A stretch of DNA of 64,000 nucleotides from Demequina sp. TMPB413 (GTDB lineage: Bacteria > Actinomycetota > Actinomycetes > Actinomycetales > Demequinaceae): contig NZ_CP096184.1 of NCBI RefSeq assembly GCF_020447105.2, positions 1,612,001 through 1,676,000 of the forward strand. Reading direction: 5' to 3'. The position numbers and the translations under genes were made by a program. Below, piece by piece: positions 2,317 through 36,510 of the stretch. Positions within the stretch are counted from its first letter, which is position 1. Each line of letters opens with the position of its first letter. Under the pieces are notes generated by a model. The model saw only the letters and a list, made by a program, of their open reading frames with translations, was not told where the DNA came from and searched no databases.

Positions 2317-5300
2317 ATGACTTCAGAATTGCCCAAGTACCCTGGCCTACCGGCCGTCATCAACGGAAACGGCGCCGTCGCGCACGTCATGAAGCACGTG
2401 TGTGGTGGCGTGATCGGCTACCCGATTACCCCGTCAACTGAGATCGCCGAGCTCTTCGAGCAGGCGCGCGCGGAGGGCCAACTCAACGTCTGGGGCAAGC
2501 ATCCCTTCTTTGTGGAGACGGAAGGCGAGCACTCCGCTCAGTCAGGCGCACTTGGTGCGGCGCTGACGGGCGGCGAGTACATCTCGAACGCCTCGTCGAG
2601 CCAGGGCATCCTGTACGCGATGGAGTCGCACTATGTGACCGTCGGCAAGAAGATCGGCGGGTTCGTGCTCCAGGTGGCGGCCCGCGTGGTCTCCAAGCAC
2701 TCCCTCAACGTGATGGCTGGGCACGACGACGTCTACGCGCTGCTCCCCTCCGGCTACACCATCCTGTTCGGTTCGAACCCTCAAGAGGCCGCCGACCTCG
2801 CCGCGATCTCGTACCGCGCGTCGGCCCTTTCCCTCATCCCCGTTGCCAACGCGATGGACGGATTCGCCACCAGCCACGTGATGAGCGAGGCCCTGCTGCC
2901 CGAGCCGGCACTGCTGAAGGACTACCTGGGCGATCCGTCCGGCCGCATCAAGGCGCCGACGGTGGCTCAAGAGATGCTGTTCGGCGCCAAGGGACGCGTG
3001 TTCCAGTTGGGTGAATACCTCAGCAGGCATGCCGATGCCTTCACCGAGCAGGCGCTCAAGGCCGTCAGGGACCACCTGGACGCCAGGGCCGACGCCGTCG
3101 AGGCAGACAACGCCGGCGCGCTCGTCGAAGAGACGCTGGCCTGGATTCCCAAGGAGCTCCAGGCTCAGTGGCGCCGTCAGTGGATCAACGCCGATGAGAA
3201 GGGCACCCGTCAACTGGTGCCGGCGCTCGTCGACCTTCACAACCCCGGCATCACGGGCACCGTGCAGAATCAGCCCGACTTCCAGGCCGGCGCTGTCGAC
3301 CACCGCACGCACTTTGTGAGCGCCGTGCCTGGCCTCATTCGCCAGGCGATGGACGAGTACGCCGAGCTCACGGGCCGCGCCTACTCCCCCGTCATGGCGT
3401 ACGACTGCGAAGACGCCGACTACGTCATGGTGGGCCTTGGTTCGATCACCGACGACGTTCGTGCGGTGCTCCCGTACTTGCGGGCGCAGGGCCTCAAGGT
3501 GGGCGTCGTGTCCATCAAGGCACTGCAGCCGTTCCCCGAGGCCGAACTGGTCGAGGCGCTGAAGTCGGCCAAGGTTGTCACCGTGCTGGAGCGCTCCGAC
3601 GAGACCGCGCTGACGCGCGCCGTCACCCAGTCGCTGTTCAAGGCGCGCGCCAACGCGGACCGGCCGCAGCACGCAGGCATCCCTGCGCTGGCCACGACTC
3701 CATCGCTCACGACCGCGATCTTCGGCCTGGGCGGCCACGACGTACAGCCACGACACCTCATCGCCGCCTTCAAGCACATGGCAGACGGCAAGAACGCGCC
3801 GCTGATCTACCTTGGCTCCCAGTTCTTTGGCAAGGACTCCGTGCCGTCGCTCGCGAGCCTCGAAGACAAGCTCAGGGCCGCGTACCCCGAGACGGAGGCG
3901 ATGGCCCTCGAGACCGCGCCAAACCCCGCGGGACTGCTGCCCGACACGGCGCTGCGCATCCGCTTCCACTCTGTGGGCGGCTACGGGACGGTCGCCACCG
4001 GCAAACTGCTGACGGACATCCTCGCCGGCGTGCTCGACATGCACTCCAAGTCGGCGCCCAAGTACGGCTCTGAGAAGTCTGGTGCGCCCACCAACTACTA
4101 CATCACCCTCAGCCCCGAGCCCGTGCTGTTCACCAACGCCGAGCTCGAAGACGTTGAGGTCGTGATCTCCCCCGACCACCAGGCGTTCGTGCACACCAAC
4201 CCCCTCAAGGGCCTGGTCGAGGGTGGCACCTTCATCCTCCAGTCGGACCTGGCACCGCAGGACGTGTGGCTCAGCATGCCGTCGTACGCCCGCCGCACCA
4301 TCCGCGAGAAGAACATCAACTTCCTGGTGGTCGACGCCTTCACGGTGGCCAAGAAGCACGCCCCCACTCCTGAACTCGAGACCCGCATGATGGGTATTGC
4401 GTTCATCGGTGCCGTCGCCGGTCACGTCGACAGGGTGTCGTCAGGAGCATCGGAGCAGGTCATCCTCGAGAAGGTACGCGCCCAGATCGTCAAGAAGTTT
4501 GGCGGCAAGGGCGACGCGGTGATCGAGGGCAACATGTCGGTCATCGAGGACGGCATCGCCGCGACCACGCTGGTCGACTACAACGCGCCAGAGCTGCTGG
4601 AACGCGAGAAGAACCACGTGTCGCCACTCGTCCTGACGGGCGCGCTGTCGGCCTCGATGTGCCCCACCACCACGGAGGCCAGGCCAAGCAACCTGTTTGA
4701 CCCCGCCTACTACGAGGACCTGATCGCTCGTCCGTTCCGCGAGGGCACCATCGGCGAGACGCCAGTGTTGCCAGGTACCGGCATGTTCATGCCTGTCGGC
4801 ACCGGCGCCACCAAGGACAAGGGACTGTTCCGACGCGTCGCACCGATCTTCAACCCTTCGGCATGCACCGGCTGCCTCGACTGCGCGATGGTCTGCCCCG
4901 ACGTGGCAATTCCCAACACGGTGCACGAGATCCACGACCTCTTGCTCTCAGGAATCGCCGCCATCGAGGCGACCGAACCGCAGCGCGAGGCGCTCCGCGC
5001 CCAGGTGTACCCGCTCGCCGAACGCGTCCGCGAGATGTACCGCCAAGACAAGACGGAATGCGCGTTTGCGGACATCGTGGCCGAGGCCGCTGCCGTTGTC
5101 GATCTACCCAAGACGGCTCGGCCGCACGTTGACGCACTCGTCGCACACCTCGCGACGTTCCCTGTCGCACGCACCCGCCCGTTCTTCGACTCGATGGAGA
5201 AGGAGGTTCCAGGGACAGGTGGCCTCTTCTCCGCGGTGGTCGACCCATGGAAGTGCACCGGTTGCCTCCAGTGCGTCGACGTGTGTGGTGCTGGCGCGCT

Positions 5301-7320
5301 GACGTCAGTTGACCAAGACGCCGACGTTCTGGCCACGCTCCAGGAGCGCTTCGAGGTCATGACGACGCTTCCGAACACGCCAAAGCGCTTCACGGCAGGC
5401 TCGACCTCGCCCGACGGCGACATCAAGCGGATGCTGCTCGACCGCAACAACTACTACGCCACCACCGGTGGCCACGGCGCATGCCGTGGTTGCGGCGAGG
5501 TCACCGCCATCCGGCTCGTGACGTCCATGAGCCGTGCGCTTGGTGACGAGCGCAGGGCTGCGTACGTCGAGGAGCTCGAAGGTCTCATCTCTCAGTTGCA
5601 GGCCAAGCGCGACGCCCTGCCTCAGGCCGACGAGGAGCGACGCAACCGCATCGGCCGCGTACTCGTCGATCTCGACAAGGCGCTGTACCTGTCGGAGGCA
5701 GGACCCACCGGCGGTGGCCCCGCCCCCACGGTGGTCGCGAACGCAACCGGCTGCAGCTCGGTCTATGCCTCGACGATGCCCTTCACCCCGTATCTCGACC
5801 CGTGGGTCAACAGCCTGTTCCAAGACGCCCAGCCCCTGGCTTCAGGCATCTACGAGGGCATCTCCGCTCAGCACGTGGCCGAGGTCAAGGCGGTGCGCCA
5901 AGCTCGGCTCGAGCTGGAGGATGCCTACGACCCAGAGGTGCATGGCAAGGAACTGAGGACGCTCTCGTGGCACGCGTTCACTGAGGATGAGCGCAAGCTC
6001 ATGCCGAACGTGCTGACCATTGGCGGCGACGGCGCGAGCTACGACATCGGCTTTGGTGCCATGTCTCGCGTGCTCGCCAGCGGCACTCCCGTGAAGATGC
6101 TGGTGCTCAACACCGGTGCCTACTCGAACACAGGAGGCCAGGCGTCGACGGCCAGCTTCATCGGCCAGGACGCCGACCTCGCCCGCTTCGGCAAGGCGCA
6201 CGTCGGCAAGGTCGAGGGTCGCAAGGATCTCGCGCTCCTCGCCTCATTCCACCCTGGCGTGTTCGCCAGTGCCACCTCCACTGCCATGCACAGCCACTTC
6301 CTGACCACCTCGATGCAGATGCTCGCGTACCAGTCAGGTGCGGCAGTGATGGACATCTACACCCCATGTGGCACCGAGAACGGCATCGCGGAGGACTTGT
6401 CCAACACGCGCTCGCAACTCGCCGTCGAGAGCAGAATGAGCCCGCTGTTTGTGCACGACCCTCGCAAGGGTTCGAGCCTTCGCGAGCGCTTCAGCCTCGA
6501 CGGAAACCCCGACGTGACCAAGCCGTGGACAACGAGCACTCTCGAGTACATCGGCGAGGGCGGTCAGCTTGAGCTGATGACGACACCGCTGACGCCAGCA
6601 GAGTTCGCGCTGGGCGAGGTGCGCTTCAAGAAGCAGTTCCACAAGCTCCCTGCCGACGCCGACGCTGTTGCGGTGCCCATCGCGGAGTTCGTGGAGCTGA
6701 GTGCGGCCGAGCGCGACGGCAAGGTGCCGTTCGTGTTCGCGACCGATGCCGACAAGCGGCTCATCAAGGTGGCCTGCTCGCCGTCGATTGTGGCGCTGGT
6801 CGAGGAGCGTCAGCGCTTCTGGCAGACGCTGCAGTACCTCGCAGGGCAACACGAGGACCAGCTCACGGGCGATCACCGCAAGGAGGTCGACGCGCTCAAG
6901 GCTCAGTACGAGGAGCTCATCCAGCTACGCGAGAGCTCGCTGGACGAGATCGCCTCGGCCATGTCGGCCCTCGCGGCATCGAGCAAGGCGCCTGCGGGCG
7001 GCCGGGCAACGGTGTCGCTCCAGTCGGCCAGGCAAGGCGCCGTCGCCACGGCTCCTGCCCCCTCGTGTGCTGAAGTAGCACAACAGGGCACCGGCCCGAT
7101 CTATCTCGACCTTGCCGACGAGCCAAAGTGCAACGACTGCGGGACCTGCTACCAGGAACTCCCCCAGTTCTTCGAGAAGAAGACGGCCATCATCGACGGC
7201 GAATCGCGCATCATCGCCACGATGGTTGAAGGCGCCCTCGACTCGGTCCAACTGACTCCAGAGCTGCAGAAGCGGATCGACAGGGTCAAGGCCTCGTGTG
7301 ACGCGGAGATCATCAAATGA
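2317..7320 (+). CDS. Giant pyruvate:ferredoxin (flavodoxin) oxidoreductase with fused ferredoxin
   Basis: 1667 residues from the ATG at 2317; an ATG at 2278 would add 13 unlikely residues. Domain order is: domains I/II (pyrimidine-binding GYPITPSTEIAE and the transketolase C-like part), the gamma domain (FHSVGGYGTVATGK), two [4Fe-4S] motifs (CTGCLDCAMVCP from C850; CTGCLQCVDVC from C980), and the TPP domain (GGDGASYDIG near 1236, NTGAYSNTGGQ near 1263). Last comes a C-terminal monocluster-ferredoxin-like segment, C1605/C1608/C1611, with a fourth Cys in the final ten residues. Usual PFORs have about 1170-1200 residues; the excess sits in an insertion between the two clusters, a coiled-coil insertion early in the TPP domain, a long helical linker near 1430-1590, and the ferredoxin tail. 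It should convert pyruvate and CoA to acetyl-CoA, CO2 and reduced ferredoxin. Its stop overlaps the next start (ATGA), so the two proteins are probably made together. Substrate could be another 2-oxoacid. Confidence 0.9.
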   Translation: MTSELPKYPGLPAVINGNGAVAHVMKHVCGGVIGYPITPSTEIAELFEQARAEGQLNVWGKHPFFVETEGEHSAQSGALGAALTGGEYISNASSSQGILYAMESHYVTVGKKIGGFVLQVAARVVSKHSLNVMAGHDDVYALLPSGYTILFGSNPQEAADLAAISYRASALSLIPVANAMDGFATSHVMSEALLPEPALLKDYLGDPSGRIKAPTVAQEMLFGAKGRVFQLGEYLSRHADAFTEQALKAVRDHLDARADAVEADNAGALVEETLAWIPKELQAQWRRQWINADEKGTRQLVPALVDLHNPGITGTVQNQPDFQAGAVDHRTHFVSAVPGLIRQAMDEYAELTGRAYSPVMAYDCEDADYVMVGLGSITDDVRAVLPYLRAQGLKVGVVSIKALQPFPEAELVEALKSAKVVTVLERSDETALTRAVTQSLFKARANADRPQHAGIPALATTPSLTTAIFGLGGHDVQPRHLIAAFKHMADGKNAPLIYLGSQFFGKDSVPSLASLEDKLRAAYPETEAMALETAPNPAGLLPDTALRIRFHSVGGYGTVATGKLLTDILAGVLDMHSKSAPKYGSEKSGAPTNYYITLSPEPVLFTNAELEDVEVVISPDHQAFVHTNPLKGLVEGGTFILQSDLAPQDVWLSMPSYARRTIREKNINFLVVDAFTVAKKHAPTPELETRMMGIAFIGAVAGHVDRVSSGASEQVILEKVRAQIVKKFGGKGDAVIEGNMSVIEDGIAATTLVDYNAPELLEREKNHVSPLVLTGALSASMCPTTTEARPSNLFDPAYYEDLIARPFREGTIGETPVLPGTGMFMPVGTGATKDKGLFRRVAPIFNPSACTGCLDCAMVCPDVAIPNTVHEIHDLLLSGIAAIEATEPQREALRAQVYPLAERVREMYRQDKTECAFADIVAEAAAVVDLPKTARPHVDALVAHLATFPVARTRPFFDSMEKEVPGTGGLFSAVVDPWKCTGCLQCVDVCGAGALTSVDQDADVLATLQERFEVMTTLPNTPKRFTAGSTSPDGDIKRMLLDRNNYYATTGGHGACRGCGEVTAIRLVTSMSRALGDERRAAYVEELEGLISQLQAKRDALPQADEERRNRIGRVLVDLDKALYLSEAGPTGGGPAPTVVANATGCSSVYASTMPFTPYLDPWVNSLFQDAQPLASGIYEGISAQHVAEVKAVRQARLELEDAYDPEVHGKELRTLSWHAFTEDERKLMPNVLTIGGDGASYDIGFGAMSRVLASGTPVKMLVLNTGAYSNTGGQASTASFIGQDADLARFGKAHVGKVEGRKDLALLASFHPGVFASATSTAMHSHFLTTSMQMLAYQSGAAVMDIYTPCGTENGIAEDLSNTRSQLAVESRMSPLFVHDPRKGSSLRERFSLDGNPDVTKPWTTSTLEYIGEGGQLELMTTPLTPAEFALGEVRFKKQFHKLPADADAVAVPIAEFVELSAAERDGKVPFVFATDADKRLIKVACSPSIVALVEERQRFWQTLQYLAGQHEDQLTGDHRKEVDALKAQYEELIQLRESSLDEIASAMSALAASSKAPAGGRATVSLQSARQGAVATAPAPSCAEVAQQGTGPIYLDLADEPKCNDCGTCYQELPQFFEKKTAIIDGESRIIATMVEGALDSVQLTPELQKRIDRVKASCDAEIIK

Positions 7321-10175
7321 GCATCATCGACGACACGGTAGAGAGCACGGGCTCTCCGCACGACGACGTGCGCCGCTACCTGGGCGCCAAGGAGGCCCTC
7401 GAGGCAACGGCTGACGAAGTGGAGGGCCTCGAAGGCTCCGCTGGCGTGGCGAGCTTCAAGCAACAGCTTGACTTGCTCAAGCGCCGACTGGTCGAGGACC
7501 CTGCCTCTTTTAGGGACATGTTCATCGAGGATGGCATCGCGGCGGCAGCGTGGGAGTTCCAGCAACCGGAGCTCGGCGACCAGTTCATGGAGACCTTGTG
7601 GAGCCTGCTGAAGAGCGAAGGCGATGCGAGCACCGTGCTCATGCGGTTCATTTGGAATCTCCCAGTGGGCAAGAAGAGGTCGTTCATCAGGGCCGTCGAC
7701 CGCGTCCTGTCCGACCGCTACCCCATGCTCAAGGGGTTCTCGGCCGAGTGGCCAGCGCACGTGGCGATCCCTCCCTACATCAGGGAGCCCGAGGTGCGCG
7801 CGGAAGACTTCGAGCTGGTCAACAAGGGTTACCTCGGCTACATGGACACGGGCCTGACCGCCCGCGAGGTCGACCTGTTGGTGTGGCTCGAGGTGCTGCG
7901 TGACAAGCAGTGTGAGGAACGGCCCTGCGAGTTGGGTGCCCTCAAGAAGAACAGCACCGATGCGCGCATCGGTGGTTGCCCCGTGCGGATTCACATCCCC
8001 GAGATGATCAACCTGATCGGCAACGGTGACTTCCGCGGCGCGCTTGAGCTCATTCAGTCGGCCAACCCGCTGCCGGACGTCACGGGTCGTGTATGCCCGC
8101 AAGAACTGCAGTGCCAGGGAGCCTGCCTGCTCAAGGTGCCGATGTCGATCGGTCAGATCGAGTTCTTCTTGCCGCAGCGGGAGAAGCTGCTCTACCCCGA
8201 CGCTAACCAGGAGCGTTTCGCTGGTGTCGCTGATCCGTGGAAGCAAAGCACCAAGCCTCCCGTTGCCATCGTCGGCTCCGGTCCGTCCGGACTCATCAAC
8301 GCATACCTGCTCGCCGTCGAGGGCTACCCCGTGACGGTCTTCGAGGCCTTCCATGAACTGGGCGGCGTGCTCCGCTACGGCATCCCTGAGTTCCGCCTTC
8401 CCAACAACCTCATCGACGACGTCGTGGAAAAGATCCGCCTGCTCGGCGGCAAGTTTGTCCTGAACTTCGTGGTGGGCAAGACGGCCACGTTGCAGGACCT
8501 GCGCGACGCTGGCTTCTGGAAGATCTTCGTCGGCACGGGCGCGGGCCTTCCCCGCTTCATGAACGTGCCTGGCGAGCACCTGCTCAACGTCATGTCCGCC
8601 AATGAGTTCCTCACCCGCGTGAACCTCATGCAGGGACTCAAGGAGGAGTTCGAGACCCCGCTTCCCGACGTCAAGGGCAAGGAGATCCTCATCATCGGCG
8701 GTGGCAACACTGCCATGGACGCGGCGCGCACCTCACGCCGCCTTGGCGGCAACGTCACGATCGTCTACCGGCGCGGCCGCTCGGAGATGCCAGCAAGGGT
8801 CGAGGAACTGCACCACGCTCTCGAGGAGGGAATCGCCCTCAAGCCGCTCGCCGCCCCCACCGAGTTCGTCGGCGACGACACGGGTTTTGTGAAGGCGGCC
8901 ATCGTCGATCAGATGGAGTTGGGCGAGCCAGACGCCTCAGGAAGGCGAGCACCCGTCAGCACCGGGCAGTCGGAGACCATCAAGGCCGACCTCGTCATCA
9001 TGGCGCTCGGCAATGCCTCCAACCCCATCATCAAGGACTCCGAGCCTCGGCTTGAGACCTCGAAGTGGGGAACGATCGTGCTCAAGACGGACGGCTCTCA
9101 AGAGACGACGCTCGAAGGCATCTACACGGGTGGCGACGCCGCGCGTGGCGGTTCCACGGCAGTCAACGCCGCCGGTGACGGCCAGAGCGCCGCGAGGGAG
9201 ATCCTCGGAGGGCTCGACGTGCCGCTCGAGCAGGTCGGCGACATGGTGGTGAAGGCCGGCGCGTACACCGAAAGAAGTCTGACGGCTTCGACCATCATCG
9301 GCAAGCGGGTGCTGAGCGACGGCATCGTGGAGTTCACCGTGCGCGCGCCAGTCATCGCCGATTCCGCGAAGGCTGGCCAGTTTGTGCGGGTACTCCCCTG
9401 GGAGGGTGGAGAGCTCATTCCGCTGACGCTCGCCGACTGGGACGCGAAGGCTGGCACCATCTGCCTCGTGGTCCAGGCCATGGGAACCTCGTCCATCCTG
9501 ATGAACAAGATGGAGGTGGGCGAAGCCCTCGCGGGAATCGCTGGCCCGCTCGGCCTTCCGAGCCACGTAGAGAAGCACGCCGACAACTCGACGGTGGTCT
9601 TCACGGCTGGTGGGCTTGGACTGCCTCCGGTGTACCCCATCGCGCGGGCGCACCTCGAACTGGGCAACCATGTCACGCTCATTGCGGGCTTCCGCAGCGA
9701 GAACCTGATGTTCTGGACGGGCGAAGGCGAGCGCGTGAGCGAGCTCAAGGCCACGTACGGCGACCTCCTCGACGTCATCTACGCCACGAACGACGGCTCG
9801 ATCGGCTACAAGGGCTTCGTGACCGGCCCACTCGAGGAGATGCTCAAGGACAACACCTCCAGCAACGGGCGGGACTTGGCAGAGATCGTCACCATCGGAC
9901 CACCGTTCATGATGCGTGCGGTCAGCGATCTCAGCAAGCCATTCGGTGTGAAGTGCGTGGCCAGCCTCAACTCGATCATGGTCGACGCGACTGGCATGTG
10001 CGGCGCGTGCATGGTGCCGGTGGAACTCGATGGCAAGCCCGTGCGCAAGCACGCCTGCATTGACGGTCCAGAGATCGACTCGCACATCATCGACTGGGAC
10101 AAGTTCCTGCCCCGGTTCAACCTGTTCAAGTCACAAGAGAAGGACAGCCTCGTGAGGCACGGACTGGTCAAGTAG
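7317..10175 (+). CDS. Fused NfnB-NfnA-type ferredoxin:NAD(P) oxidoreductase
   Basis: 952 residues. Residues 1-190 are a helical segment I do not recognise. Then comes a GltD/NfnB-like unit: an Fe-S N-terminal part (CEERPC, GGCPVRIHIPEM, RVCPQELQCQGAC), an FAD dinucleotide fold (AIVGSGPSG near 318) and an NAD(P)H fold (IIGGGNTAMDAAR near 459). From about residue 650 there is an NfnA/SfnL-like ferredoxin-NADP reductase unit (GQFVRVLP for flavin) ending in a [2Fe-2S] motif, GMCGACMV...HACIDGPE. Both halves of the electron-bifurcating transhydrogenase NfnAB are thus joined, large subunit first. The overlap with PFOR suggests that reduced ferredoxin from pyruvate is passed directly to NAD(P). Whether it bifurcates electrons or acts as a plain Fd:NADP reductase cannot be decided here. 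A perfect 13-bp hairpin follows. Confidence 0.85.
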   Translation: MSIIDDTVESTGSPHDDVRRYLGAKEALEATADEVEGLEGSAGVASFKQQLDLLKRRLVEDPASFRDMFIEDGIAAAAWEFQQPELGDQFMETLWSLLKSEGDASTVLMRFIWNLPVGKKRSFIRAVDRVLSDRYPMLKGFSAEWPAHVAIPPYIREPEVRAEDFELVNKGYLGYMDTGLTAREVDLLVWLEVLRDKQCEERPCELGALKKNSTDARIGGCPVRIHIPEMINLIGNGDFRGALELIQSANPLPDVTGRVCPQELQCQGACLLKVPMSIGQIEFFLPQREKLLYPDANQERFAGVADPWKQSTKPPVAIVGSGPSGLINAYLLAVEGYPVTVFEAFHELGGVLRYGIPEFRLPNNLIDDVVEKIRLLGGKFVLNFVVGKTATLQDLRDAGFWKIFVGTGAGLPRFMNVPGEHLLNVMSANEFLTRVNLMQGLKEEFETPLPDVKGKEILIIGGGNTAMDAARTSRRLGGNVTIVYRRGRSEMPARVEELHHALEEGIALKPLAAPTEFVGDDTGFVKAAIVDQMELGEPDASGRRAPVSTGQSETIKADLVIMALGNASNPIIKDSEPRLETSKWGTIVLKTDGSQETTLEGIYTGGDAARGGSTAVNAAGDGQSAAREILGGLDVPLEQVGDMVVKAGAYTERSLTASTIIGKRVLSDGIVEFTVRAPVIADSAKAGQFVRVLPWEGGELIPLTLADWDAKAGTICLVVQAMGTSSILMNKMEVGEALAGIAGPLGLPSHVEKHADNSTVVFTAGGLGLPPVYPIARAHLELGNHVTLIAGFRSENLMFWTGEGERVSELKATYGDLLDVIYATNDGSIGYKGFVTGPLEEMLKDNTSSNGRDLAEIVTIGPPFMMRAVSDLSKPFGVKCVASLNSIMVDATGMCGACMVPVELDGKPVRKHACIDGPEIDSHIIDWDKFLPRFNLFKSQEKDSLVRHGLVK

Positions 10176-10200: not shown

Positions 10201-10248
10201 ACGCCGAAGGCCGTCTCCGCCCCGCCGGGGGGAGGCGGCCTTCGGCGT
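10201..10248. terminator. Bidirectional terminator between Nfn fusion and aldo/keto reductase
   Basis: ACGCCGAAGGCCG pairs perfectly with CGGCCTTCGGCGT over 13 bp; the 22-nt loop can itself fold. It lies 25 bp past the Nfn fusion stop. The convergent aldo/keto reductase gene ends 134 bp further on, so the hairpin may serve both. Confidence 0.8.
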
Positions 10249-11453: not shown

Positions 11454-13199
11454 TCATGCGCCAAGCCCCGCGCCGTGTCGCCTACTCACGAAGTCCATGA
11501 GGTCCTCCTCCGTGAGTGGGCGGCTATGCAGGAATCCCTGCACCTGGTGGATTCCGCTGCGACGCACCGCATCGTCTTCAACGTCCGTCTCAATCCCTTC
11601 GGCAACCACGTCGAGCCGGAAGCGATCTGCAAGACGGGCCACGAGTGCGAGCATCTCGACGTCAAAAGGCGCGTCGCGACCGCAGCCCTCGATGACAGAC
11701 CTGTCCACCTTGATGCACTCGATCGGCAAGGACGTCCCGATCATCCTCAATGCCCCAAGAGTCGCGCCGATGTCGTCCAACGCGAGCCGAATCCCTGCCA
11801 CCGCGAGCGTGGCCAGTTGAGGCGTCGCACGCACCAAGTCGGCCACGCCGACGTACTCCGACAATTCGAGGCACACCCGGTCCCGCTCCACACCGGACTC
11901 GTCGACCGTCTCCAACACGACGTCGGCGAGTGACGGCGCGCTGACCGATTCGGGCGCGAGGTTGACATGGATGCGAGGCGGCTCCTGAATGTCCGCGCTC
12001 GCCGTCCACCTCACCATCGCCGCGCACGCCTGAGAGAGCACCCACCGATCGAGTTCCAGCGCGGCACCTGCACGCGCGACTTGTTGCATCCGTTCGGCAG
12101 GGAACTCGAGGCAGCCGTCCGGCTGGCGGGCACGTAGCAGCGCCTCCACGGCCGTGACGCGGCCCGTCTCCAGATCGAGAAATGGCTGATAGACCAGCAC
12201 GAGGTCTTCGGTGGGCAAGGAGTGACGGACGCCGCCAAAGGCCCCGCCCAGCCGCACCCTGTCGCCGCCAGCCACTTTTGCGGTGTACATCGCCTCGTCG
12301 GCCGCCTTGAGCAGTTGGTCCCCTCTCACGCCCGCACCAGAGGCCACCGTCACGCCGATGCTTGCACGGGACTCAGCCGGTGTCGGAAGCACAGGATCGG
12401 GTTGCGCGAGGGCCGCTCGCAGGCGCTCTCCAAGTGCCAGCGCCTCTTCTTCCAGGCGCCGCTGCGGGGCGGGCTCCAGGGACATCACCACCGCGAACTC
12501 GTCGCCTCCGAGCCTGCCAAGCAGGTGGTGTGGACCGATCGCGCCGGCCAGCCTGCGCGCTACGGACTTCAGGAGGGCATCGCCCATGGTGTGGCCGTAG
12601 AGATCGTTCACCGGTTTGAGTCTGTCCAGGTCAAGGAACGCCACTGCCACCGCACCGTCACCAGCCGCCACTCGCGCGAGGCGCTCGTCGAGACCTTCGA
12701 TGAGGCGTGCCCTCGAGGCCGCTCCCGTCAGTTCGTCGGTCGCCGCCCTCTGTGCGGTTTGCTCGGCAAGGGCGCGCATGACGCGTATTGGTCGCACGAT
12801 GCCGATCGGCTCGCCGTCGTCATCAACCACGGGAAGGTCGCGGTAGCCCTGAGCGCTGTCGACGATCAGCGACGCAGCGTGAACGGTGGTCGTGCTACTC
12901 CTCACCACGGGAACGCCCCACGTTGCCACGGCCGCGACGGGCCGCCTTCCCCACAGCGACCGTCCGTAGCCGTAGCGACCAGCCATCCGCGACAGGAAGG
13001 CCGCACGCCCGAGCAGCCCGATGCTGCCATCGGCGGCTCGCACGAGCAGCGAGGAACCCTGCCACTGGCCTGCGAACTCCTCGTCGACTTGGGCGCATGT
13101 GGTGGTCGCGTCGACCACCCGGCACGGCTCGATCATCTTGTCGAGTGTGGTCTCTTCGGCCATCGTGTCAGCCACCTCCACTGCGCTCTTCGGCATCAT
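11454..13199 (-). CDS. CBS-GGDEF-EAL cyclic di-GMP signalling protein
   Basis: 581 residues. Residues 20-145 look like a pair of CBS domains (PVVRSSTTTVHAA..., YRDLPVVDDDGEPIGIVR). The GGDEF domain has an intact GGDEF at 231-235 and no RxxD inhibitory site five residues before it. The EAL domain keeps EALLR (352-356), N413, E445, D475-D476, K497 and E534, although loop 6 reads DDIGAT instead of DDFGTG. Both synthesis and hydrolysis of c-di-GMP are therefore possible, probably tuned by a nucleotide on the CBS pair. There is no membrane segment. An alternative ATG at 13163 has a better Shine-Dalgarno (GGAGG) but a long spacing. Confidence 0.88.
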   Translation of the reverse strand: MMPKSAVEVADTMAEETTLDKMIEPCRVVDATTTCAQVDEEFAGQWQGSSLLVRAADGSIGLLGRAAFLSRMAGRYGYGRSLWGRRPVAAVATWGVPVVRSSTTTVHAASLIVDSAQGYRDLPVVDDDGEPIGIVRPIRVMRALAEQTAQRAATDELTGAASRARLIEGLDERLARVAAGDGAVAVAFLDLDRLKPVNDLYGHTMGDALLKSVARRLAGAIGPHHLLGRLGGDEFAVVMSLEPAPQRRLEEEALALGERLRAALAQPDPVLPTPAESRASIGVTVASGAGVRGDQLLKAADEAMYTAKVAGGDRVRLGGAFGGVRHSLPTEDLVLVYQPFLDLETGRVTAVEALLRARQPDGCLEFPAERMQQVARAGAALELDRWVLSQACAAMVRWTASADIQEPPRIHVNLAPESVSAPSLADVVLETVDESGVERDRVCLELSEYVGVADLVRATPQLATLAVAGIRLALDDIGATLGALRMIGTSLPIECIKVDRSVIEGCGRDAPFDVEMLALVARLADRFRLDVVAEGIETDVEDDAVRRSGIHQVQGFLHSRPLTEEDLMDFVSRRHGAGLGA

Positions 13200-13319
13200 G
13201 GCGTGACGCGTAAGGGTTGCCTGCCTCTGTTCACCGAAGGTTCACAGAAGCGATGCGATATCAGGCACAATGCCCGAGTTGTACCTCATCGCGAGTAGGT
13301 GCCCAGAGCCGACAAACGC

Positions 13320-13356: not shown

Positions 13357-13378
13357 CACGTCAACATTCAGGGATGAG

Positions 13379-13744
13379 TGGAGATGGCGGGAATCGAACC
13401 CGCGTCCGCATGTTCAAAAGCAGGGCTTCTCCGGGCGCAGCCTGAGAGCTATTTCTCGGCCCCTCACCCGCATCAGGCGAGCAAGTGAGATGGGCCCAGT
13501 CACAGTGCAAGTCCCGGTTGCCGCTGTGACGCCAGCAACCAGCAAGTTCTCTAGATGACGCCAGGAACTAGGTCGAGAACAAACCTAGGCTGACGGACTT
13601 CATAGCGCTCGCTTAAGCAGCGAGGGCGAAGTCGGTGCGCTTAGAATCGGCACCTATAGTTTGCTGGGGGCGTTCACAAGATAACCCAGCGTCCTTGGCC
13701 CGCTTCCCCTGCGATACAAACACACGTCGAAACCGATCATCCCC
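13379..13744 (-). ncRNA. ssrA: tmRNA (transfer-messenger RNA)
   Basis: About 366 nt. The 5' end GGGGATG pairs with the 3' CATCTCC to form the acceptor stem, and GGTTTCGAC near the 5' end and GGGTTCGATTCCCGCC near the 3' end are the signature D-like and T-arm elements. The discriminator A is followed by CTC, so CCA is not encoded and must be added. The tag reading frame runs 13651-13613 and encodes ADSKRTDFALAA followed by TAA, with the ALAA degron recognised by Clp proteases. tmRNA with SmpB rescues stalled ribosomes; smpB lies 5.6 kb away on the same strand. Confidence 0.96.
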
Positions 13745-24561: not shown

Positions 24562-27291
24562 TTACTTCGCTGACTTCTTCGCGGCCTTGGTCGCCGTCTT
24601 GGGGTCTGCTGAGCCCTCCTTGACGGTGCGGTTCTTGACCTCATCCCACGTGATTCCGTAGTACGCGGCTTCCATCATGATCTTCATGTCGTCGATCATC
24701 GGCAGACGCGGGTTCGCGGGTGCGCACTGGTCCTCGTAGGCCTGCATCGCGAGCGTGTCGAGGCTTGACAGGAACTCCGCCTCGTCAACGCCGATCGCCT
24801 GGAACGAAGGCTCGATGCCCACCTTGGCGCGCAGCTCCTCGACAGCCGTGGCGTAAGCCTCGACGGCGATCTCTGGAGTCTCGTGTGCCAGGCCGAGCAT
24901 CTTCGCAATCTCTTGGAAGCGCTCGGGCGCCACGTAGGACTCCTGCTTGGGCCACGAGGTCGGCTTGGTGGGAACCTTGCCGTTGTAGCGGATCACGTGC
25001 GGCAGGTAGACCGCGTTGGTGCGACCGTGTGCGACGTGGTACATCGAGCCGGTGACGTGGCTCATCGCGTGGACCAGACCAAGGAACGCGTTGCCGAAGG
25101 CCATACCGGCGATCGTGGCCGCGTTGTGCATCTTCTCGCGAGCCTTGACCGCGCCACCGCCGACGGTGACCGACTCTTCGATGTTCTCGAACACCAGGCG
25201 GATCGCCTGGAGGCAGAGACCATCGGTGAAGTCGTTCGCGTAGACGGAGACGTATGCCTCGGTCGCGTGCGTCAGGGCGTCCATGCCGGAGTCGGCCGCG
25301 ACCCGCGAAGGCAGGTTGGCGGTCAGTACCGGGTCAACGATCGCGACGGTCGGGGTCAGCGCGTAGTCGGCGAGCGGGTACTTGCGGCCCGTCTCCGTGT
25401 CAGTGATGACCGCGAACGGCGTCACCTCTGCGCCGGTTCCCGACGTGGTCGGGATGCACACCAGCTTGGCGAGTTCGCCCAGCTTGGGGAACTGGAAGGC
25501 GCGCTTGCGGACGTCGAAGAACTTCTCCTTGAGGTCCGAGAACACGATGTCTGGGTGCTCGTACATGAGCCACATGACCTTCGCGGCGTCCATGGGCGAG
25601 CCACCGCCGACGGCGATGATCGTGTCGGGCTTGAAGGCCCTCATGATCTCGGCACCGGCCGTGACCGTCTTGATGGACGGCTCCGGCTCAACGTTGTCGA
25701 TGATCTGCAGCGACACGTTGTTGGCGCGGCGGCGCAGCACGTCGATGATCTTGTCGACCACGCCGATGCGGGTCATCGTCGCGTCGGTGACGATCGTGAC
25801 GCGCTCGACGGCGTTCATGTCGTGCAAGTACTGGATCGCGTTGGGCTCGAAGTACGTCTTGGCCGGGACCTTGAACCACTGCATGTTGTTGTTCCTCCGG
25901 CCGATGCGCTTGACGTTGATGAGGTTCACCGCGGTGACGTTGTTCGACACCGAGTTCTTGCCGTACGAACCACAGCCGAGCGTGAGCGAAGGCAGGAACG
26001 CGTTGTAGATGTCGCCGATGCCGCCGTGGCTCGAAGGTGCGTTGCAGATGATGCGAATCGCCTTGCAGCGCTTGCCGAACTCCTTGATGAGGTCTTCGTC
26101 GGTCGCGTGGATCGCGGCCGAGTGACCGAGGCCGTGGAACTCGACCATCTTCTCGGAGTAGACGAGGCCCTGTTCGGTGTCGTTGGCCTTGAGCACCGCG
26201 AGCACTGGGCACAGCTTCTCGCGCGTGAGGGGCTCGTTCTCGCCCACCTCTGCAACCTCGGCAAGGATGATCGAGGTCTCTTCTGGCACCGAGAAGCCCG
26301 CCTGCTCGGCGATCCACTGGGGGGACTTGCCGACGACGTTCGGGTTGAGCTTGGCACCGGCACAGTTGCTACCACCGGCGGTGGCGCCGAAGATGAACTC
26401 TTCGAGCTTGGCCTTCTCTTCCTTGGTGACCTTGTAGGCGTGCAGGCGGTCGAACAGCCCCATTGCCTCTGCGTAGATCTCCTTGTCGAGAATGACGGCC
26501 TGCTCGGAAGCACACACCATGCCGTTGTCGAAGGCCTTGGAGATCACCAAGTCGTTGATCGCGCGCTTCAGGTTGGCTGACTTGTGGACGTAGGCGGGGA
26601 CGTTTCCAGCGCCGACGCCGAGGGCTGGCTTCCCGCAGGAGTAGGCCGCCTTGACCATCGCGTTGCCGCCGGTTGCGAGGATGAGGGCCACACCGGGGTG
26701 GTTCATGAGTTCGCTGGTCGCCTCGAGGGAGGGGATCTCGACCCACTGCACGCAGTTCTCGGGAGCGCCAGCCGCGATGGCGGCGTCGCGCACGACCTTG
26801 GCTGCGGCGACCGAGGACTCTTGAGCGCTCGGGTGGAAGCCGAAGATGATCGGGTTGCGCGTCTTGATCGCGATGAGGGACTTGAAGATCGCGGTGGACG
26901 TCGGGTTGGTGACGGGGGTGATGCCGGCGACGACGCCGACGGGCTCGGCGATCTCGGTGATGCCGGTGATCGGGTCCTCGGAGATGATGCCCACGGTCTT
27001 CATGGGGGCCATCGAGTGCGTCACGTGTTCGCAAGCGAAGATGTTCTTCACTGCCTTGTCTTCGAAGACGCCGCGGCCGGTCTCCTTGACCGCGAGCAGC
27101 GCGAGCTCGCCGTGCTGGTTCAAGGCGGCAACAGATGCCTTCTTGACGTACTGGTTGACGTCTTCTTGGGTGCGGCTCGCGTACTCTTCGAGGGCCTTCT
27201 GGGCCTTCACCACGAGAGCGTCAATTGCGGCGGCAACCGAAGGCGCGTCGGTCTGGGTCTCGGTGCCTGCCTTGGGGGCGGTGGTCGTCAT
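24562..27291 (-). CDS. adhE: Bifunctional aldehyde-alcohol dehydrogenase AdhE
   Basis: 909 residues, a normal AdhE length. The N-terminal half is a CoA-acylating aldehyde dehydrogenase with the catalytic Cys at 260 ([11 protein letters not shown]). The C-terminal half is an iron-dependent alcohol dehydrogenase with [13 protein letters not shown] for NAD and the metal-binding His cluster in [10 protein letters not shown] and [19 protein letters not shown]. It reduces acetyl-CoA to acetaldehyde and ethanol, oxidising two NADH, and forms filaments (spirosomes) in other bacteria. AGGAGG stands 8 bp before the ATG. It has its own promoter region with a GGTCC-repeat box and a terminator. This is a strong sign of ethanol fermentation. 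Confidence 0.97.
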
Positions 27292-27695: not shown

Positions 27696-29093
27696 TCAGA
27701 CCCCCTTCCCTGTGGTCGCGAGCTTCTGTGCCGCGGCGCGCTCGTGCTCTGGCACCGCGTCGGCGGCCTCGTGGTACTTCTCATCCGCAGGCTTGACCAG
27801 CAGATTCGCCACGAAGCCCACCACGAGCAGCCCCACCATGACCATCATGGACGGCCCGTAAAGGGCTGCGCCTTCGACGCCAGCGTTGCTACGCGCGTCG
27901 AGGATCGAGTTGACGATGAGCGGACCAGCGATGCCCGCTGCCGACCATGCCGTCAGCAGGCGGCCGTGAACAGCTCCCACCTCGAACTCACCAAACGTGT
28001 CCTTGAGGTACGCAGGGATCGTGGCGAACCCGCCTCCGTAGAACGTGATGATGATGAAGGCGAGCAACACGAACACGGCGATGGACGTGGAACCTGCGAA
28101 CGCGAGCGCCGCGTAGAAGACAGCGCCTGCTCCGAGGTACTTGACGTAGGTCATGCGCCGGCCGATCACATCCGACAGGCTCGACCAACCGATGCGGCCC
28201 GCCATGTTGGCGAGCGACAGGAGACCGACGAAGCCAGCGGCGGCCGCAGCGCTCACGCCTTTGCCTGTTGCCTCGTCAAAGGGGAAGTAGTCCTGGATCA
28301 TCGGGCTGGCATTCTCAAGGATGCCGATTCCCGCAGTGACGTTGGTGAACAACACGATCCACAGCAGGTAGAAGCTACGGGTCTTGATGGCGTTCTTGGC
28401 GCTCACTTGGCCAGCCGTCGTCCGTGCGGCTGCCGCCGGCTTCGGCTCCCAGCCTTCCGGCTTCCATCCCTTGGCCGGCACTCGCACCACGGCGGCACCG
28501 AGGATCATCAGCACAAAGTAGGCGGCACCCATCACGATCCACGTGGGAACAAGTCCGTCTTGTGGCGTGCCGTCGCTGAAGGCATCGAGCAGCGCCTTCG
28601 AAACGGGAGAAGCGAGCATCGCGCCTCCACCGAAGCCCATGATGGCGAGGCCAGTGGCCAGGCCTGGGCGGTCGGGGAACCACTTGATCAGCGTCGACAC
28701 TGGCGAGATGTAGCCGATGCCAAGACCAATGCCACCGATGACGCCGTAGCCGAGGTAGACCAGCCAAATGCTGCCGAGAGCGATACCTGCGGCGCCAACC
28801 ATGAAGCCGAGAGACCACGCGAATGCCGCGACGACCATCGCCTTACGAGGTCCGTGGCGCTCCATCCAGCGACCACCGAAAGCCGCCGAGAGGCCCAGCA
28901 TCGCGATCGCGATCGAGAACGTCACACCGCTCTGGGTGTGGTTGATGTCGAGGCGCTCCTCAAGCGGAGTCTTGAAGACGCTCAGGGCGTAGACCTGGCC
29001 GATGCTCAGGTGCACGGCGAGGGCAGCGGGGGGGACGAGCCAACGGTTGTACCCCGGTGGGGCCACCGTTGCTTCTCTGTCGAGAATCGACAT
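27696..29093 (-). CDS. OFA-family MFS transporter (oxalate/formate antiporter-like)
   Basis: 465 residues with twelve predicted helices. The N-terminal RWLVPPAALAVHLSIGQVYALSVFKTPL and GYGVIGGIGLGIGYISPVSTLIKWFPDRPG are characteristic of the OFA branch (OxlT, YhjX). These carriers exchange small carboxylates such as oxalate/formate, pyruvate or lactate. Set among PFL, AdhE and PFOR genes, transport of a fermentation acid is plausible, but the substrate is inferred. The ATG is preceded by AAGGGAGAAGTAC. It forms an operon with the 36-residue gene and shares a 312-bp divergent region with the disrupted SLAC1 gene. Confidence 0.85.
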   Translation of the reverse strand: MSILDREATVAPPGYNRWLVPPAALAVHLSIGQVYALSVFKTPLEERLDINHTQSGVTFSIAIAMLGLSAAFGGRWMERHGPRKAMVVAAFAWSLGFMVGAAGIALGSIWLVYLGYGVIGGIGLGIGYISPVSTLIKWFPDRPGLATGLAIMGFGGGAMLASPVSKALLDAFSDGTPQDGLVPTWIVMGAAYFVLMILGAAVVRVPAKGWKPEGWEPKPAAAARTTAGQVSAKNAIKTRSFYLLWIVLFTNVTAGIGILENASPMIQDYFPFDEATGKGVSAAAAAGFVGLLSLANMAGRIGWSSLSDVIGRRMTYVKYLGAGAVFYAALAFAGSTSIAVFVLLAFIIITFYGGGFATIPAYLKDTFGEFEVGAVHGRLLTAWSAAGIAGPLIVNSILDARSNAGVEGAALYGPSMMVMVGLLVVGFVANLLVKPADEKYHEAADAVPEHERAAAQKLATTGKGV

Positions 29094-29716: not shown

Positions 29717-30556
29717 TTAGCGGAAGTTTGTGCCGGTTGTGACGCGGCGTAGTTCGTCGGCTGCGGCGGCGTGGTTGCGGAGCCGGTAGGAGCCTCCGTC
29801 GAGGGTGACGACGACGGATCGGTGTAGGAGTCGGTCGAGCATCGCGGCGGCGACGGTGGTGTCGCCGAGGATCTCGCCCCAGGCGCCGACGGGCCGGTTC
29901 GTGGTGATCACGATCGACGTTTTCAGGTAACGCTGGTTGATGACCTGGAACAGTGCTGACGCGGCCTCGGCGGGCAACGGCAGGTAGCCCAGCTCGTCGA
30001 TCACGAGCAGTGTGGGTCCGGCGAAGAACCGCATCATGGTGCCCCATTTGCCCTCGATCGCGGCGCGGTGGCAGCGGGCGGCGAGGTCGGCGGCGGAGGT
30101 GAAGTAGGTGCGATAACCGGCCGTCACAGCCGCATGGCCGAGGCCGGTCGCGATGTGGGTTTTCCCGACTCCGGGAGGGCCGATCAGGAGCACGTTGGTT
30201 GCGGTGTCGAGGTAGCGGCAGGTGCCAAGCTCGGTCAGGAGGTTGCTGTCGATGCCGGAGGCGGCGTCGAGGTCGAAGTCGGCAAGGGTCGCACCGGTGG
30301 GCAGGTTCGCGAAGCGGAACCGGCCGGCCAGGCGTCTGGCGTCGGTCGCGGTGACCTCGATGGCGAGCAGGCGCTCGAGGGTGTGAGTCAGCGACCAGCC
30401 CTCGGCTTGGGCTTGGTCCAGGACGCGGGGCAGGGCGTCGGCGGCGTCGTCGAGTTTCAGTTCGGTGAGGTGGCCGCGTAGTTGCTGAAACACGCTCGCC
30501 GGCGTCGCGGCCGTCGTCGCCGTCAGGGTGGAAGCGGTGGTGAGTGGTGTGTTCAT
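29717..30556 (-). CDS. istB: IS21-family helper ATPase IstB
   Basis: 279 residues. Walker A LLIGPPGVGKTHIATGLG, Walker B LLVIDELGYLPLP and the arginine-bearing INQRYLKTSIVITTNRP are the standard AAA+ DnaC/IstB motifs. It assembles on target DNA and recruits the IstA transposase. Its start overlaps the istA stop (ATGA). It is longer at the N-terminus than many IstB proteins (about 250 residues), beginning with a Thr/Ala-rich stretch. Confidence 0.95.
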   Translation of the reverse strand: MNTPLTTASTLTATTAATPASVFQQLRGHLTELKLDDAADALPRVLDQAQAEGWSLTHTLERLLAIEVTATDARRLAGRFRFANLPTGATLADFDLDAASGIDSNLLTELGTCRYLDTATNVLLIGPPGVGKTHIATGLGHAAVTAGYRTYFTSAADLAARCHRAAIEGKWGTMMRFFAGPTLLVIDELGYLPLPAEAASALFQVINQRYLKTSIVITTNRPVGAWGEILGDTTVAAAMLDRLLHRSVVVTLDGGSYRLRNHAAAADELRRVTTGTNFR

Positions 30557-31878
30557 TGGAGGGTGTTCCTGTTCTTCGCGGCCGTCTCGTAGGCGGCCAG
30601 GCTGATCACGGTGGTGGGTTCGGTGGCGCTAGTGAGCGCCATGGCGGCGCGGCGGGCCGCGGTGCCCGGTGGGATGCGTTCCTTCTTCCGGTGCGGGCGG
30701 CCTGGAGGCGCAGCGGCCAGGGCGATGGTCTCCAGGGCGGTGACGTGTCTGCTGTCGCGGATCGTGACCCCCAGCCCCGGCTCGGCAACCTGGTGCCGTG
30801 CCAGCACCACGCCGGAGATGGTCCCGATATCGATGGTGGCCGCACCGAGGCGTTGATGGACGATGACGCGGGCCGCAGCCAGTTCCGGCGGGACCGAGTA
30901 CCGGTTCCCGCGCCAATCGATCAGCGCCTGCCGTGTCGCGGTGCGCTCCTCGGTCACCACCACCGGGAACAGCATCGGTGGCAACGGGCTCAGCCGTTCC
31001 GCAGCGAACATGACTGCGGCCGTCGTGGACCCGTCGCGTCCCTCACGGCGTCGACCGTCCTGCCCTTGGGCGAACGCGGTCAGGCGTTGCTGCGCTTGCT
31101 CAAGGGTGACATCGTCCGCAAGGTTGCGCCACCAACGCTGGGCGGCGGTGTGGTTGTTCTTCTCGACCACGCCCTTGCGGTTGCCCGACCGGGGCCGGCA
31201 AGCGACGACGCTGACCGCGTGGTGCTTGGAGAACGCGGCGAACATTGGTGTCAGATCACTCGTCCCCGCCTTCAGCACGGTGCTCATCCGGTCGAACCGC
31301 CACATCTTCGTCACGCCGCCCAGCAGGCCCAGCAGCACCGTCATCGCGGCCAGCAGGTGGGGCAGGTCCATCGACGGGGAGATCACCGCCCGCCAAACCC
31401 CCGAGTGCGCGAGCGAACCCACGAGGACGTAGGCGCGTTTGGTTGGGAACGCCCAGTCGGCCGGGGCGTCGGGCAACTCGACCCAGTCGAACTGCGTCTC
31501 CTCACCCGGCGGGTGGACGATGATCGCGTTGGGCCGCTTGGTCACATGCGCGCAGGCCGTGCAGGCCGGCCGCAAACTCCGGTCCCGGATCTGGCGAGTC
31601 AAGGTCTGATACGACCCTTCGAAGCCCAGTGGCACGAGCTCGTCCAGCAGCGTCACCGCCCACAGATGCGGGTCCTCGCTCAGACGGGCGGTGACGTAGG
31701 CGATGAACGCGTCGAACAGATCCGGGGCGGCACGGTGACGCACTCCTGGGGTGCGTTGGCCAGCCAGATAGGCGCGGATTGTCTTGCGGTCGTGATCGGT
31801 GCGCCGGGCGATCTCACTGATCGTCATCCCCTGGCGTTTGAGCGCGTGGATGTCCACGTCGTCCTCCTCTGAAAGCAT
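30553..31878 (-). CDS. istA: IS21-family transposase IstA
   Basis: 441 residues. An N-terminal helix-turn-helix (MTISEIARRTDHDRKTIRAYL) binds the IS ends. The DDE catalytic triad is recognisable as D in ETQFDWVEL, D in WRFDRMSTV and E in GNRKGVVEKNNH. A C-terminal domain of IS21 type (NRYSVPPELA) follows. No frameshift or stop is present. Confidence 0.94.
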   Translation of the reverse strand: MLSEEDDVDIHALKRQGMTISEIARRTDHDRKTIRAYLAGQRTPGVRHRAAPDLFDAFIAYVTARLSEDPHLWAVTLLDELVPLGFEGSYQTLTRQIRDRSLRPACTACAHVTKRPNAIIVHPPGEETQFDWVELPDAPADWAFPTKRAYVLVGSLAHSGVWRAVISPSMDLPHLLAAMTVLLGLLGGVTKMWRFDRMSTVLKAGTSDLTPMFAAFSKHHAVSVVACRPRSGNRKGVVEKNNHTAAQRWWRNLADDVTLEQAQQRLTAFAQGQDGRRREGRDGSTTAAVMFAAERLSPLPPMLFPVVVTEERTATRQALIDWRGNRYSVPPELAAARVIVHQRLGAATIDIGTISGVVLARHQVAEPGLGVTIRDSRHVTALETIALAAAPPGRPHRKKERIPPGTAARRAAMALTSATEPTTVISLAAYETAAKNRNTLQ

Positions 31879-33258: not shown

Positions 33259-34086
33259 TCACGCCACCTTGACCGGCAGTCCATACGACTCTAGCTGGGC
33301 TTTCACCCGGTCCACCAGCTCCTGCGAGGGGGCCCTGGTGTCTCCCAGCAGGTACGGCTCGCCAGTGGCCTCCCACTTAGCCTTGCCCATCTGGTGGAAC
33401 GGCAGGATCTCCATGCGCTCGACCCCGTCAAGCGTCGCCACAAACTTGCCAATCGCGTCGACGTTCTCTTCTTCGTCGGTCAAACCTGGAACGAGCACGA
33501 ACCGAATCCACGTCTTCTTGCCAAGGCGCGACAAGCGCTCGGCGAAGTCGAGCGTCGGCTGTAGTGGCCTTCCCGTCACTCGCTTGTAGGTGTCAGGGAT
33601 CCCAGACTTGATGTCGAGCAACACGAGGTCGATGTAGTTGAGGTCATCGTCCGTGAGCCTCGATCCCAGCAGGCCAGCGGTGTCGAGCGCGGTGTGGATG
33701 TTGAGGTCGTGGGCGCGCCTGAACACCTGCGTGACAAAGTGCGATTGCAGGAGCGGCTCTCCGCCCGAGATCGTGAGGCCACCGCCGGTGACCTTCATGA
33801 TCGTGGAGTAGCGCGTCACGCGCGCCAGCACCTCGTCAACGGTGTGGCGCACACCGTCCTTCATGCGCCACGTGTCGGGGTTGTGGCAGTACTGGCATCT
33901 CAGGCCGCACCCTGCCATGAACAGCGTCATGCGGGTTCCTGGGCCGTCGGCGCCCGTCACGAGGTCCCAGGAGTGGACCGAGCCAGCCGTGTTGTCGACG
34001 AGGCTCTCGCTCGCCGCTAGTTCAGCGTCGGCGATCTCCATGGGGGGCCCGAGCGTGACGTCGACCGGTACCGATTCGTTGGTCAC
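33259..34086 (-). CDS. pflA: Pyruvate formate-lyase activating enzyme
   Basis: 275 residues. The radical SAM motif CGLRCQYCHN (CxxxCxxC) and TGGGLTISGGEPLLQ (the GGE motif) are diagnostic. It installs the glycyl radical on PflB using S-adenosylmethionine and reduced flavodoxin or ferredoxin. About 40 residues before the core (SVHSWDLVTGADGPGTRM) make it slightly longer than the E. coli enzyme. It lies directly after pflB; a strong hairpin between them may lower its expression relative to pflB. Confidence 0.95.
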   Translation of the reverse strand: MTNESVPVDVTLGPPMEIADAELAASESLVDNTAGSVHSWDLVTGADGPGTRMTLFMAGCGLRCQYCHNPDTWRMKDGVRHTVDEVLARVTRYSTIMKVTGGGLTISGGEPLLQSHFVTQVFRRAHDLNIHTALDTAGLLGSRLTDDDLNYIDLVLLDIKSGIPDTYKRVTGRPLQPTLDFAERLSRLGKKTWIRFVLVPGLTDEEENVDAIGKFVATLDGVERMEILPFHQMGKAKWEATGEPYLLGDTRAPSQELVDRVKAQLESYGLPVKVA

Positions 34087-34112
34087 AATTGCTCCAGACT
34101 TCCGGGGTTGCC

Positions 34113-34171
34113 AACACTACGACAGCGGCGCCCCTGCCTTCCGGACGGGGCGCCGTACTGTCAGTAGTGTT
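34113..34171 (-). terminator. Intercistronic hairpin between pflB and pflA
   Basis: AACACTAC, GACAG and CGGCGCCCC (34113-34134) pair in register with GGGGCGCCG, CTGTC and GTAGTGTT (34147-34171), 22 bp in all with two small bulges. The stem begins inside the pflB stop codon. No U-run follows, so partial termination or mRNA protection of pflB is likely rather than a full stop. Confidence 0.7.
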
Positions 34172-36446: not shown

Positions 36447-36510
36447 CTCGGTAAAACCTTCCTGCATGGGGAAATGCATGGGGAGTAGGCGCTGTAGCAC
36501 CGTTACCGCC

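Follow-up and report, generated by a model that had tools for sequence, protein, structure and literature searches.

A giant PFOR-like protein with a tethered ferredoxin domain, paired with a fused Nfn protein in Demequina: a putative pyruvate:NADP+ oxidoreductase complex

Our analysis indicates that a 1667-residue PFOR-like protein of Demequina sp. TMPB413 is encoded directly ahead of a fused NfnB-NfnA protein, and that this pairing recurs wherever the assembly of a related locus allows it to be judged. On balance we favour the view that the two proteins form a dedicated complex, a pyruvate:NADP+ oxidoreductase in which a tethered ferredoxin domain hands electrons to Nfn and NADH is probably a co-donor. 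A dedicated pyruvate:NAD(P) complex had been proposed by a sequence-only reading of this DNA; the consistent pairing speaks for that proposal, while pyruvate as the substrate, contact between the proteins, the swinging transfer, NADPH as the product and the role of NADH are what we infer.

The window, by which we mean the whole stretch of 64,000 nucleotides analysed, comes from a genome assembled as one contig of 2,920,349 bases. All coordinates are on the forward strand unless stated otherwise. The PFOR-like frame runs from 2317 to 7320 (1667 residues) and the fused Nfn frame from 7317 to 10175 (952 residues), sharing ATGA at 7317-7320, just as had been read from the letters; a PFOR start at 2278, 39 bases farther upstream, is also open. 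A fatty acid desaturase gene precedes PFOR across a gap of 290 bases, an aldo/keto reductase-like gene lies downstream of Nfn in the opposite direction, and PFOR and Nfn look like a two-gene unit. No promoter was found by a consensus scan before PFOR, and the palindrome GAACATGTTC at 2274-2283 recurs in 0 of 63 loci in which 300 bases upstream were checked. Right after the Nfn gene, a perfect 13-bp inverted repeat without a T run can be seen by eye at 10201-10248, possibly the terminator of the operon.

A search for related loci gave 65, spread over a scattered set of actinobacteria that includes Actinotalea fermentans and Cellulomonas gelida. Could the long frames have arisen by chance or by a mis-called fusion? 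This can be ruled out, since 45 of the 65 loci carry the same long frames over their whole length, with best-segment identity of 61-91%. These 45 loci together with the window make up the 46 full-length PFOR sequences in which we assessed conservation.

The giant PFOR-like protein (2317..7320) was placed with Pfam, NCBIfam, PDB sequence matches and its model. Pfam finds POR_N, PFOR_II, POR, two stretches of Fer4 and a C-terminal Fer4_15, with the POR_N, PFOR_II, POR, Fer4 and TPP domains in the order known from PFOR; the best PDB sequence matches are the Moorella and Desulfovibrio enzymes, and YPITPS and YSNTGG, motifs on the TPP side, are retained. Twelve cluster cysteines are invariant in 46/46 sequences; we take them to hold three [4Fe-4S] clusters, with the ligands of the third presumably as in PFOR structures. 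The first CxxCxxCxxxC motif, C850-C860, lies at 4864..4896 and the second, C980-C990, at 5254..5286, each kept in 46/46. The equivalog TIGR02176 is the top family among 42 NCBIfam families, at 394.5 bits against a cut-off of 911.35, and since this score is so far below the cut-off, pyruvate is not certain to be the substrate. Within its own genome the protein has no second match at E 1e-5.

Relative to Moorella PFOR (6cin), the protein is longer in several places. After domain I, the alignment places an extra stretch at residues 195-305 (2899..3231), about 88 residues longer than in Moorella and held to a length of 109-111 in 46/46 homologs. Alignment and model together place a helical insert of about 72 extra residues at 868-957 (4918..5187), which separates the two ferredoxin-like clusters, and a paired-helix insert of about 62 extra residues at 1072-1138 (5530..5730), between C1059 and C1146, which we assume to be third-cluster ligands. 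The C-terminus comprises about 270 residues, as against 52 in Moorella, and begins with an extension that ends in a long helix (residues 1397-1555; 6505..6981; alignment, lengths and model). The AlphaFold model covers residues 540-1667 (mean pLDDT 74.8, pTM 0.73), and its best match is Moorella PFOR, with a TM of about 0.5 over about 1020 columns. The coiled coils that the sequence-only reading had placed in PFOR reappear in this model as a predicted helix pair (1060-1100, 1106-1127) and one long helix (1511-1555).

Beyond the extension lies what would be the mobile part of the system. A flexible linker rich in Ala, Gly and Pro spans residues 1556-1600 (6982..7116). In 45 sequences (that of the locus from Rhodoplanes elegans left out) its length varies from 39 to 73 residues and its composition is 30% Ala, 14% Gly and 14% Pro; in the model, residues 1555-1592 fall below pLDDT 50 and are unstructured. 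Linkers of this Ala/Gly/Pro kind resemble those of lipoyl domains. The tethered single-cluster ferredoxin domain that follows (residues 1601-1667; 7117..7317), with C1605, C1608, C1611 and C1661, is constant at 67 residues in 45/45 sequences, the same one left out, and has block-mean pLDDT values of 72-85. Its four cysteines are retained in 45 of 46 sequences, the exception being the alphaproteobacterium Rhodoplanes elegans, where a frameshift moves the domain to another frame. In terms of scores, the case for a ferredoxin is weak: Fer4_15 barely passes the Pfam cut-off for the domain alone (22.8 versus 22.4 bits), and a PDB search with it gave nothing significant, the best ferredoxin (7m1o, E 0.013) standing behind a designed protein at 0.01. 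The conserved CxxCxxC...C pattern is the stronger argument, and together with the Pfam match it upholds the earlier claim that this PFOR carries its own C-terminal ferredoxin domain. Such a domain suggests that a separate ferredoxin or flavodoxin may not be needed.

The second protein (7317..10175) is a fused NfnB-NfnA protein of the pattern C type, as indicated by family NF009415, alignments and the model. It exceeds the NF009415 cut-off (1618 versus 1519 bits over residues 10-950), and contains Fer4_20, Pyr_redox_2 and DHODB_Fe-S_bind by Pfam. The NfnB, or large-subunit, part at 7968..9221 comprises the FAD and NADP(H) domains with C221, C260, C266, C270 and E282, and the NfnA, or small-subunit, part at 9288..10154 the FAD and NAD(H) domains with a [2Fe-2S] motif of D890, C895, C898 and C914; both assignments rest on Pfam, alignment and model. 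The model (mean pLDDT 79.5, pTM 0.77) matches the two chains of Pyrococcus furiosus NfnI (5jca) with TM of 0.87 and 0.89 by target length. The motif GRVCPQExQCx3C with a later Glu is present, C260, C266, C270 and E282 being kept in 48/48 sequences with a shorter loop before the Glu. The Asp/Cys/Cys/Cys ligands of the [2Fe-2S] motif are likewise kept (D890 in 44/44; C895, C898 and C914 in 48/48), in a spacing and among neighbours unlike the published DGTGMCGxCRx10CV.

Ahead of these parts, alignment and model define an N-terminal helical domain (residues 1-217, 7317..7967), which takes in the beginning of the first cluster motif; it is conserved in the 18 sequences aligned and helical in the model. 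Against the PDB it gave nothing significant (best E 0.085) and against Pfam single chance-level matches only. As the sequence-only reading suggested, this domain and the PFOR inserts could serve for docking. The NfnA part is C-terminal and the protein has about 200 extra residues, as in pattern C. The NfnB-NfnA fusion with an N-terminal domain, as the sequence-only reading had it, is real, and it is a fusion type that had already been described. That reading overlooked this earlier description, as it did the flexible linker of PFOR and the invariant exchange of Cys for Asp in an Nfn cluster motif.

One cluster motif departs from the published form. For NfnB this form is RCx2Cx4Cx3CPV, and ferredoxin is predicted to bind near the outer cluster, according to the excerpted text of PMC6405883. 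Here it becomes RDx2Cx4Cx15-16CPV: the segment D196-x2-C199-x4-C204 (7902..7928) has Asp in 48/48 sequences where the published motif starts with Cys, and the spacing before the CPV cysteine is 15 or 16 instead of 3, through an insert of 12 residues in 46 sequences and of 13 in two. All seven stand-alone NfnB-like proteins that were aligned have the first Cys. The Cys replaced by D196 is presumably a ligand of the outer cluster, following the ligand assignment in dihydropyrimidine dehydrogenase and NfnI. Asp at this position may act as a ligand matched to a single, fixed electron donor, or may mark an altered cluster. Confidence in the Nfn model drops under pLDDT 50 at residues 203-217 and 259-269, which leaves the geometry at D196 poorly defined.

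How consistent is the pairing? Wherever a locus includes the PFOR 3' end plus 300 or more further bases, Nfn comes next (52 of 52 loci); in the remaining 13 of the 65, PFOR runs off the contig in 12 and there is no room in one. Among 51 loci with both genes called, the overlap is 4 bp in 34 and 1 bp in 5, and some of the loci with neither reflect start calling. Such regularity is far beyond chance. In one Propionibacteriaceae assembly (L062) the PFOR frame is broken at about 12037-13224 of that locus, with no match to residues 679-1199 in the pieces shown, either a broken gene or an assembly fault. The Rhodoplanes elegans locus holds the pair at 65-67% identity, its PFOR frameshift lying at about 12330-12560 of the locus. 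Two loci labelled Proteobacteria and Phyllobacteriaceae (L007 and L054) have PFOR at 70-71% identity, like actinobacterial genera, and these contigs are perhaps mis-binned.

Whole-genome searches, which scored the best few candidates per genome, gave the same picture at several depths. Among 248 genomes of the order, PFOR occurs in 24 and Nfn in 23; the two genes are adjacent on a single contig in 19 of these 23 and lie on separate contigs of fragmented assemblies in the other 4, and the sole genome with PFOR and no Nfn is an assembly 69% complete in which PFOR is cut at the contig end. In the class (316 genomes), the same 3 genomes have both genes, side by side. At the level of the phylum, 223 of 396 genomes show some match to PFOR at E 1e-10, the second best reaching only 1e-36, so that within this sample our genome alone has the giant form. 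A match to Nfn at E 1e-100 occurs in 88 of the 396, and all except that of our own genome cover only about residues 183-645; stand-alone NfnB-like genes are thus common in the phylum. The sequence-only reading would have been undone by homologs found mostly apart; instead, no genome whose assembly permits a judgement has one of the two genes without the other, and because this co-occurrence check came out as it did, a dedicated pyruvate:NAD(P) unit is the best reading.

The nearest PFOR relatives found are in Demequina assemblies, at 91% and 85%. The pair is absent from 17 of 17 other sampled Demequina genomes, whereas 34 of 36 others sampled from this genus carry PFL; within Demequina the pair thus shows sporadic gain or loss. 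One genome (G688) holds the giant PFOR plus another PFOR, a 1219-residue frame matching the giant in pieces at 35-38%, and since both forms are carried there, the giant PFOR is a separate lineage. The divergences of PFOR and Nfn are strongly correlated over 42 pairs (Mantel r 0.89, reached by 0 of 999 permutations), although adjacency and shared inheritance alone would also lead one to expect this. A crude clustering of the longest frames, which lost some Nfn frames to antisense frames, revealed no third widely shared neighbour gene: the groups in at least four loci were PFOR, Nfn, two antisense sets and one set on both strands (seven loci).

Other long PFORs of the phylum were considered as relatives and rejected. 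Eight phylum matches have long frames and match only in pieces 21-36% identical, and the stretches around them contain no Nfn-matching frame of at least 300 residues. Seven of the eight carry their additional length ahead of the PFOR match, and in the eighth (L084) the start of PFOR is matched twice; these frames are either overlong or of some other kind. Three of them (L082, L083 and L085), with frames of 1620, 1633 and 1985 residues, have 400-780 residues before the PFOR match, as fusions or overlong frames would. Spread on plasmids was likewise discarded: two plasmid records match Nfn at E 1e-100 with 43% coverage, and both are Bacteroidota proteins.

How could such a pair work? The PFOR part would oxidise pyruvate with TPP and CoA, and single electrons would run along its three internal [4Fe-4S] clusters to a fourth in the ferredoxin domain. 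Tethered by about 45 flexible residues, the ferredoxin domain would swing back and forth from the outlet of PFOR to the outer Nfn cluster, and the fused Nfn would reduce NADP+. A route from PFOR through the tethered domain to Nfn is likely in view of the pairing, the cofactor motifs and the placement of a ferredoxin on a mobile linker, and since the tethered domain would shuttle the electrons, free ferredoxin would be unnecessary. NADH probably gives the other half of the electrons, because the NAD site, the second FAD domain and the [2Fe-2S] motif are kept. The overall reaction would then be pyruvate + CoA + NADH + 2 NADP+ -> acetyl-CoA + CO2 + NAD+ + 2 NADPH. In its most specific form, with a ferredoxin tethered like a lipoyl arm and a confurcating Nfn with an Asp-ligated entry cluster turning pyruvate and NADH into two NADPH with no free ferredoxin, the proposal is a tentative one, to which we give somewhat less than an even chance.

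The strongest competitor keeps the complex and makes Nfn a plain reductase, which takes electrons from the tethered ferredoxin and delivers them to NADP+ or NAD+ with neither bifurcation nor NADH as co-donor, the second nucleotide site being an alternative outlet. The altered outer-cluster motif (Asp in all 48 sequences) and the 12-13 extra residues behind it would fit such an enzyme, since D196 could impair or alter the cluster and counts in that respect against a bifurcating complex. According to the excerpted account of PMC6405883, sequence does not reveal function, and NfnII has no NAD+-dependent activity. Against this stand the retained [2Fe-2S] Cys and Asp residues, Glu282 and the signatures of both nucleotide domains, and we judge the plain reductase to be unlikely, at about one chance in four.

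Less probable again is that the genes are merely co-expressed, with the C-terminal domain serving free ferredoxin or other acceptors and Nfn separately balancing the ferredoxin and NAD(P)H pools. In anaerobes PFOR and Nfn do work through free ferredoxin (PMC6405883, excerpted text); yet here the pairing holds in 52 of 52 loci, even though the phylum has many stand-alone NfnB-like genes, and the tether looks purpose-built, which leaves this explanation improbable. As for the complex running mainly in reverse, for example in NADPH-driven pyruvate synthesis by electron bifurcation, or on another 2-oxoacid, the score short of the pyruvate-specific TIGR02176 cut-off leaves some room for it. Both PFOR and Nfn are reversible enzymes, which also counts for a reverse role. 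The fermentative setting, with PFL, PflA and AdhE in the same window, the best-scoring family being pyruvate:ferredoxin oxidoreductase, and the retention of YPITPS and YSNTGG weigh so far the other way that we regard this as very improbable. The dedicated pyruvate:NADP+ complex is the preferred reading.

The window also holds, on the reverse strand and each over its NCBIfam cut-off, bifunctional AdhE, a PFL-activating protein and pyruvate formate-lyase (24562-27291 and 33259-36572), as well as an MFS transporter of the L-lactate type (27696-29093, model NF049980). An IS21-type element lies between AdhE and PFL (29717-31878, reverse strand; IstB over its cut-off, the transposase at 159.1 versus 160 bits), and a tmRNA gene with the tag ADSKRTDFALAA is found at 13378-13744, also on the reverse strand. 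Elsewhere the genome encodes aceE, two zwf and PntB, each over cut-off. With aceE and PFL also present, pyruvate has three routes to acetyl-CoA; the PFOR-Nfn unit is one of them, and it would be the one that gives NADPH. If our reading is true, this is a direct bacterial pyruvate-to-NADPH enzyme complex, a first function for pattern C Nfn, and a bifurcation system with a covalently held ferredoxin in which single-electron traffic could be traced. It would bear on the NADPH supply during fermentation in actinobacteria such as Cellulomonas, Actinotalea and Propionibacteriaceae. What is newly noted is the pairing; the fused Nfn type and both kinds of enzyme were already known.

Among the matches listed in a search of open-licence PMC, we met no description of the giant PFOR or of its pairing with pattern C Nfn, which is weak evidence of novelty. 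Compared with homodimeric PFOR (Moorella 6cin, Desulfovibrio africanus 1b0p/7plm), the protein is alike in domain order, three internal clusters and TPP-side motifs; it differs in its length (1667 residues versus 1171-1232), low identity, helical inserts, tethered C-terminal ferredoxin domain and score under the TIGR02176 cut-off. NfnI of P. furiosus and NfnAB of Thermotoga maritima (5jca, 4ylf) share the folds of both Nfn parts but have separate subunits, free ferredoxin, Cys at the position of D196 and no N-terminal helical domain. The pattern C Nfn described from Actinobacteria, Alpha- and Gammaproteobacteria is fused, about 200 residues longer and has its NfnA part last (PMC6405883, excerpted text); the abstract of that paper notes that detailed characterisation of the fused kinds is lacking. 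Mobiluncus curtisii ADI67453, which stands at the base of the Nfn tree in the excerpted text of PMC6085437, is such a protein, with the NfnB part first, NfnA last and about 200 extra residues. Here pattern C Nfn always stands beside the giant PFOR where this can be checked, whereas the excerpted text of PMC6405883 gives no such neighbour, its gene-map legend naming PFOR among the neighbours of nfn genes.

The idea of PFOR joined to an Nfn-like partner was anticipated for Propionibacterium with other partners: excerpts of PMC7650540 postulate an electron-bifurcating complex of PFOR and co-transcribed GltD-like and DHOD-like proteins, and report that a PFOR knockout severely crippled growth. That complex has separate GltD-like and DHOD-like genes and a postulated quinol outlet (PMC7650540, excerpts), whereas in Demequina one fused Nfn follows PFOR and a desaturase gene precedes it. 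AadN of Rhodopseudomonas palustris is likewise a fused Nfn with a dedicated electron-transfer role, but is of pattern B according to its authors and serves benzoyl-CoA reductase (PMC9973337, excerpts). Pfam found no P450-reductase-like domain in the giant PFOR-like protein. In eukaryotic pyruvate:NADP+ oxidoreductase, a single polypeptide joins PFOR to a cytochrome P450 reductase-like domain. The Demequina pair would thus do the same overall job with the NAD(P) part supplied as a second, Nfn-type protein.
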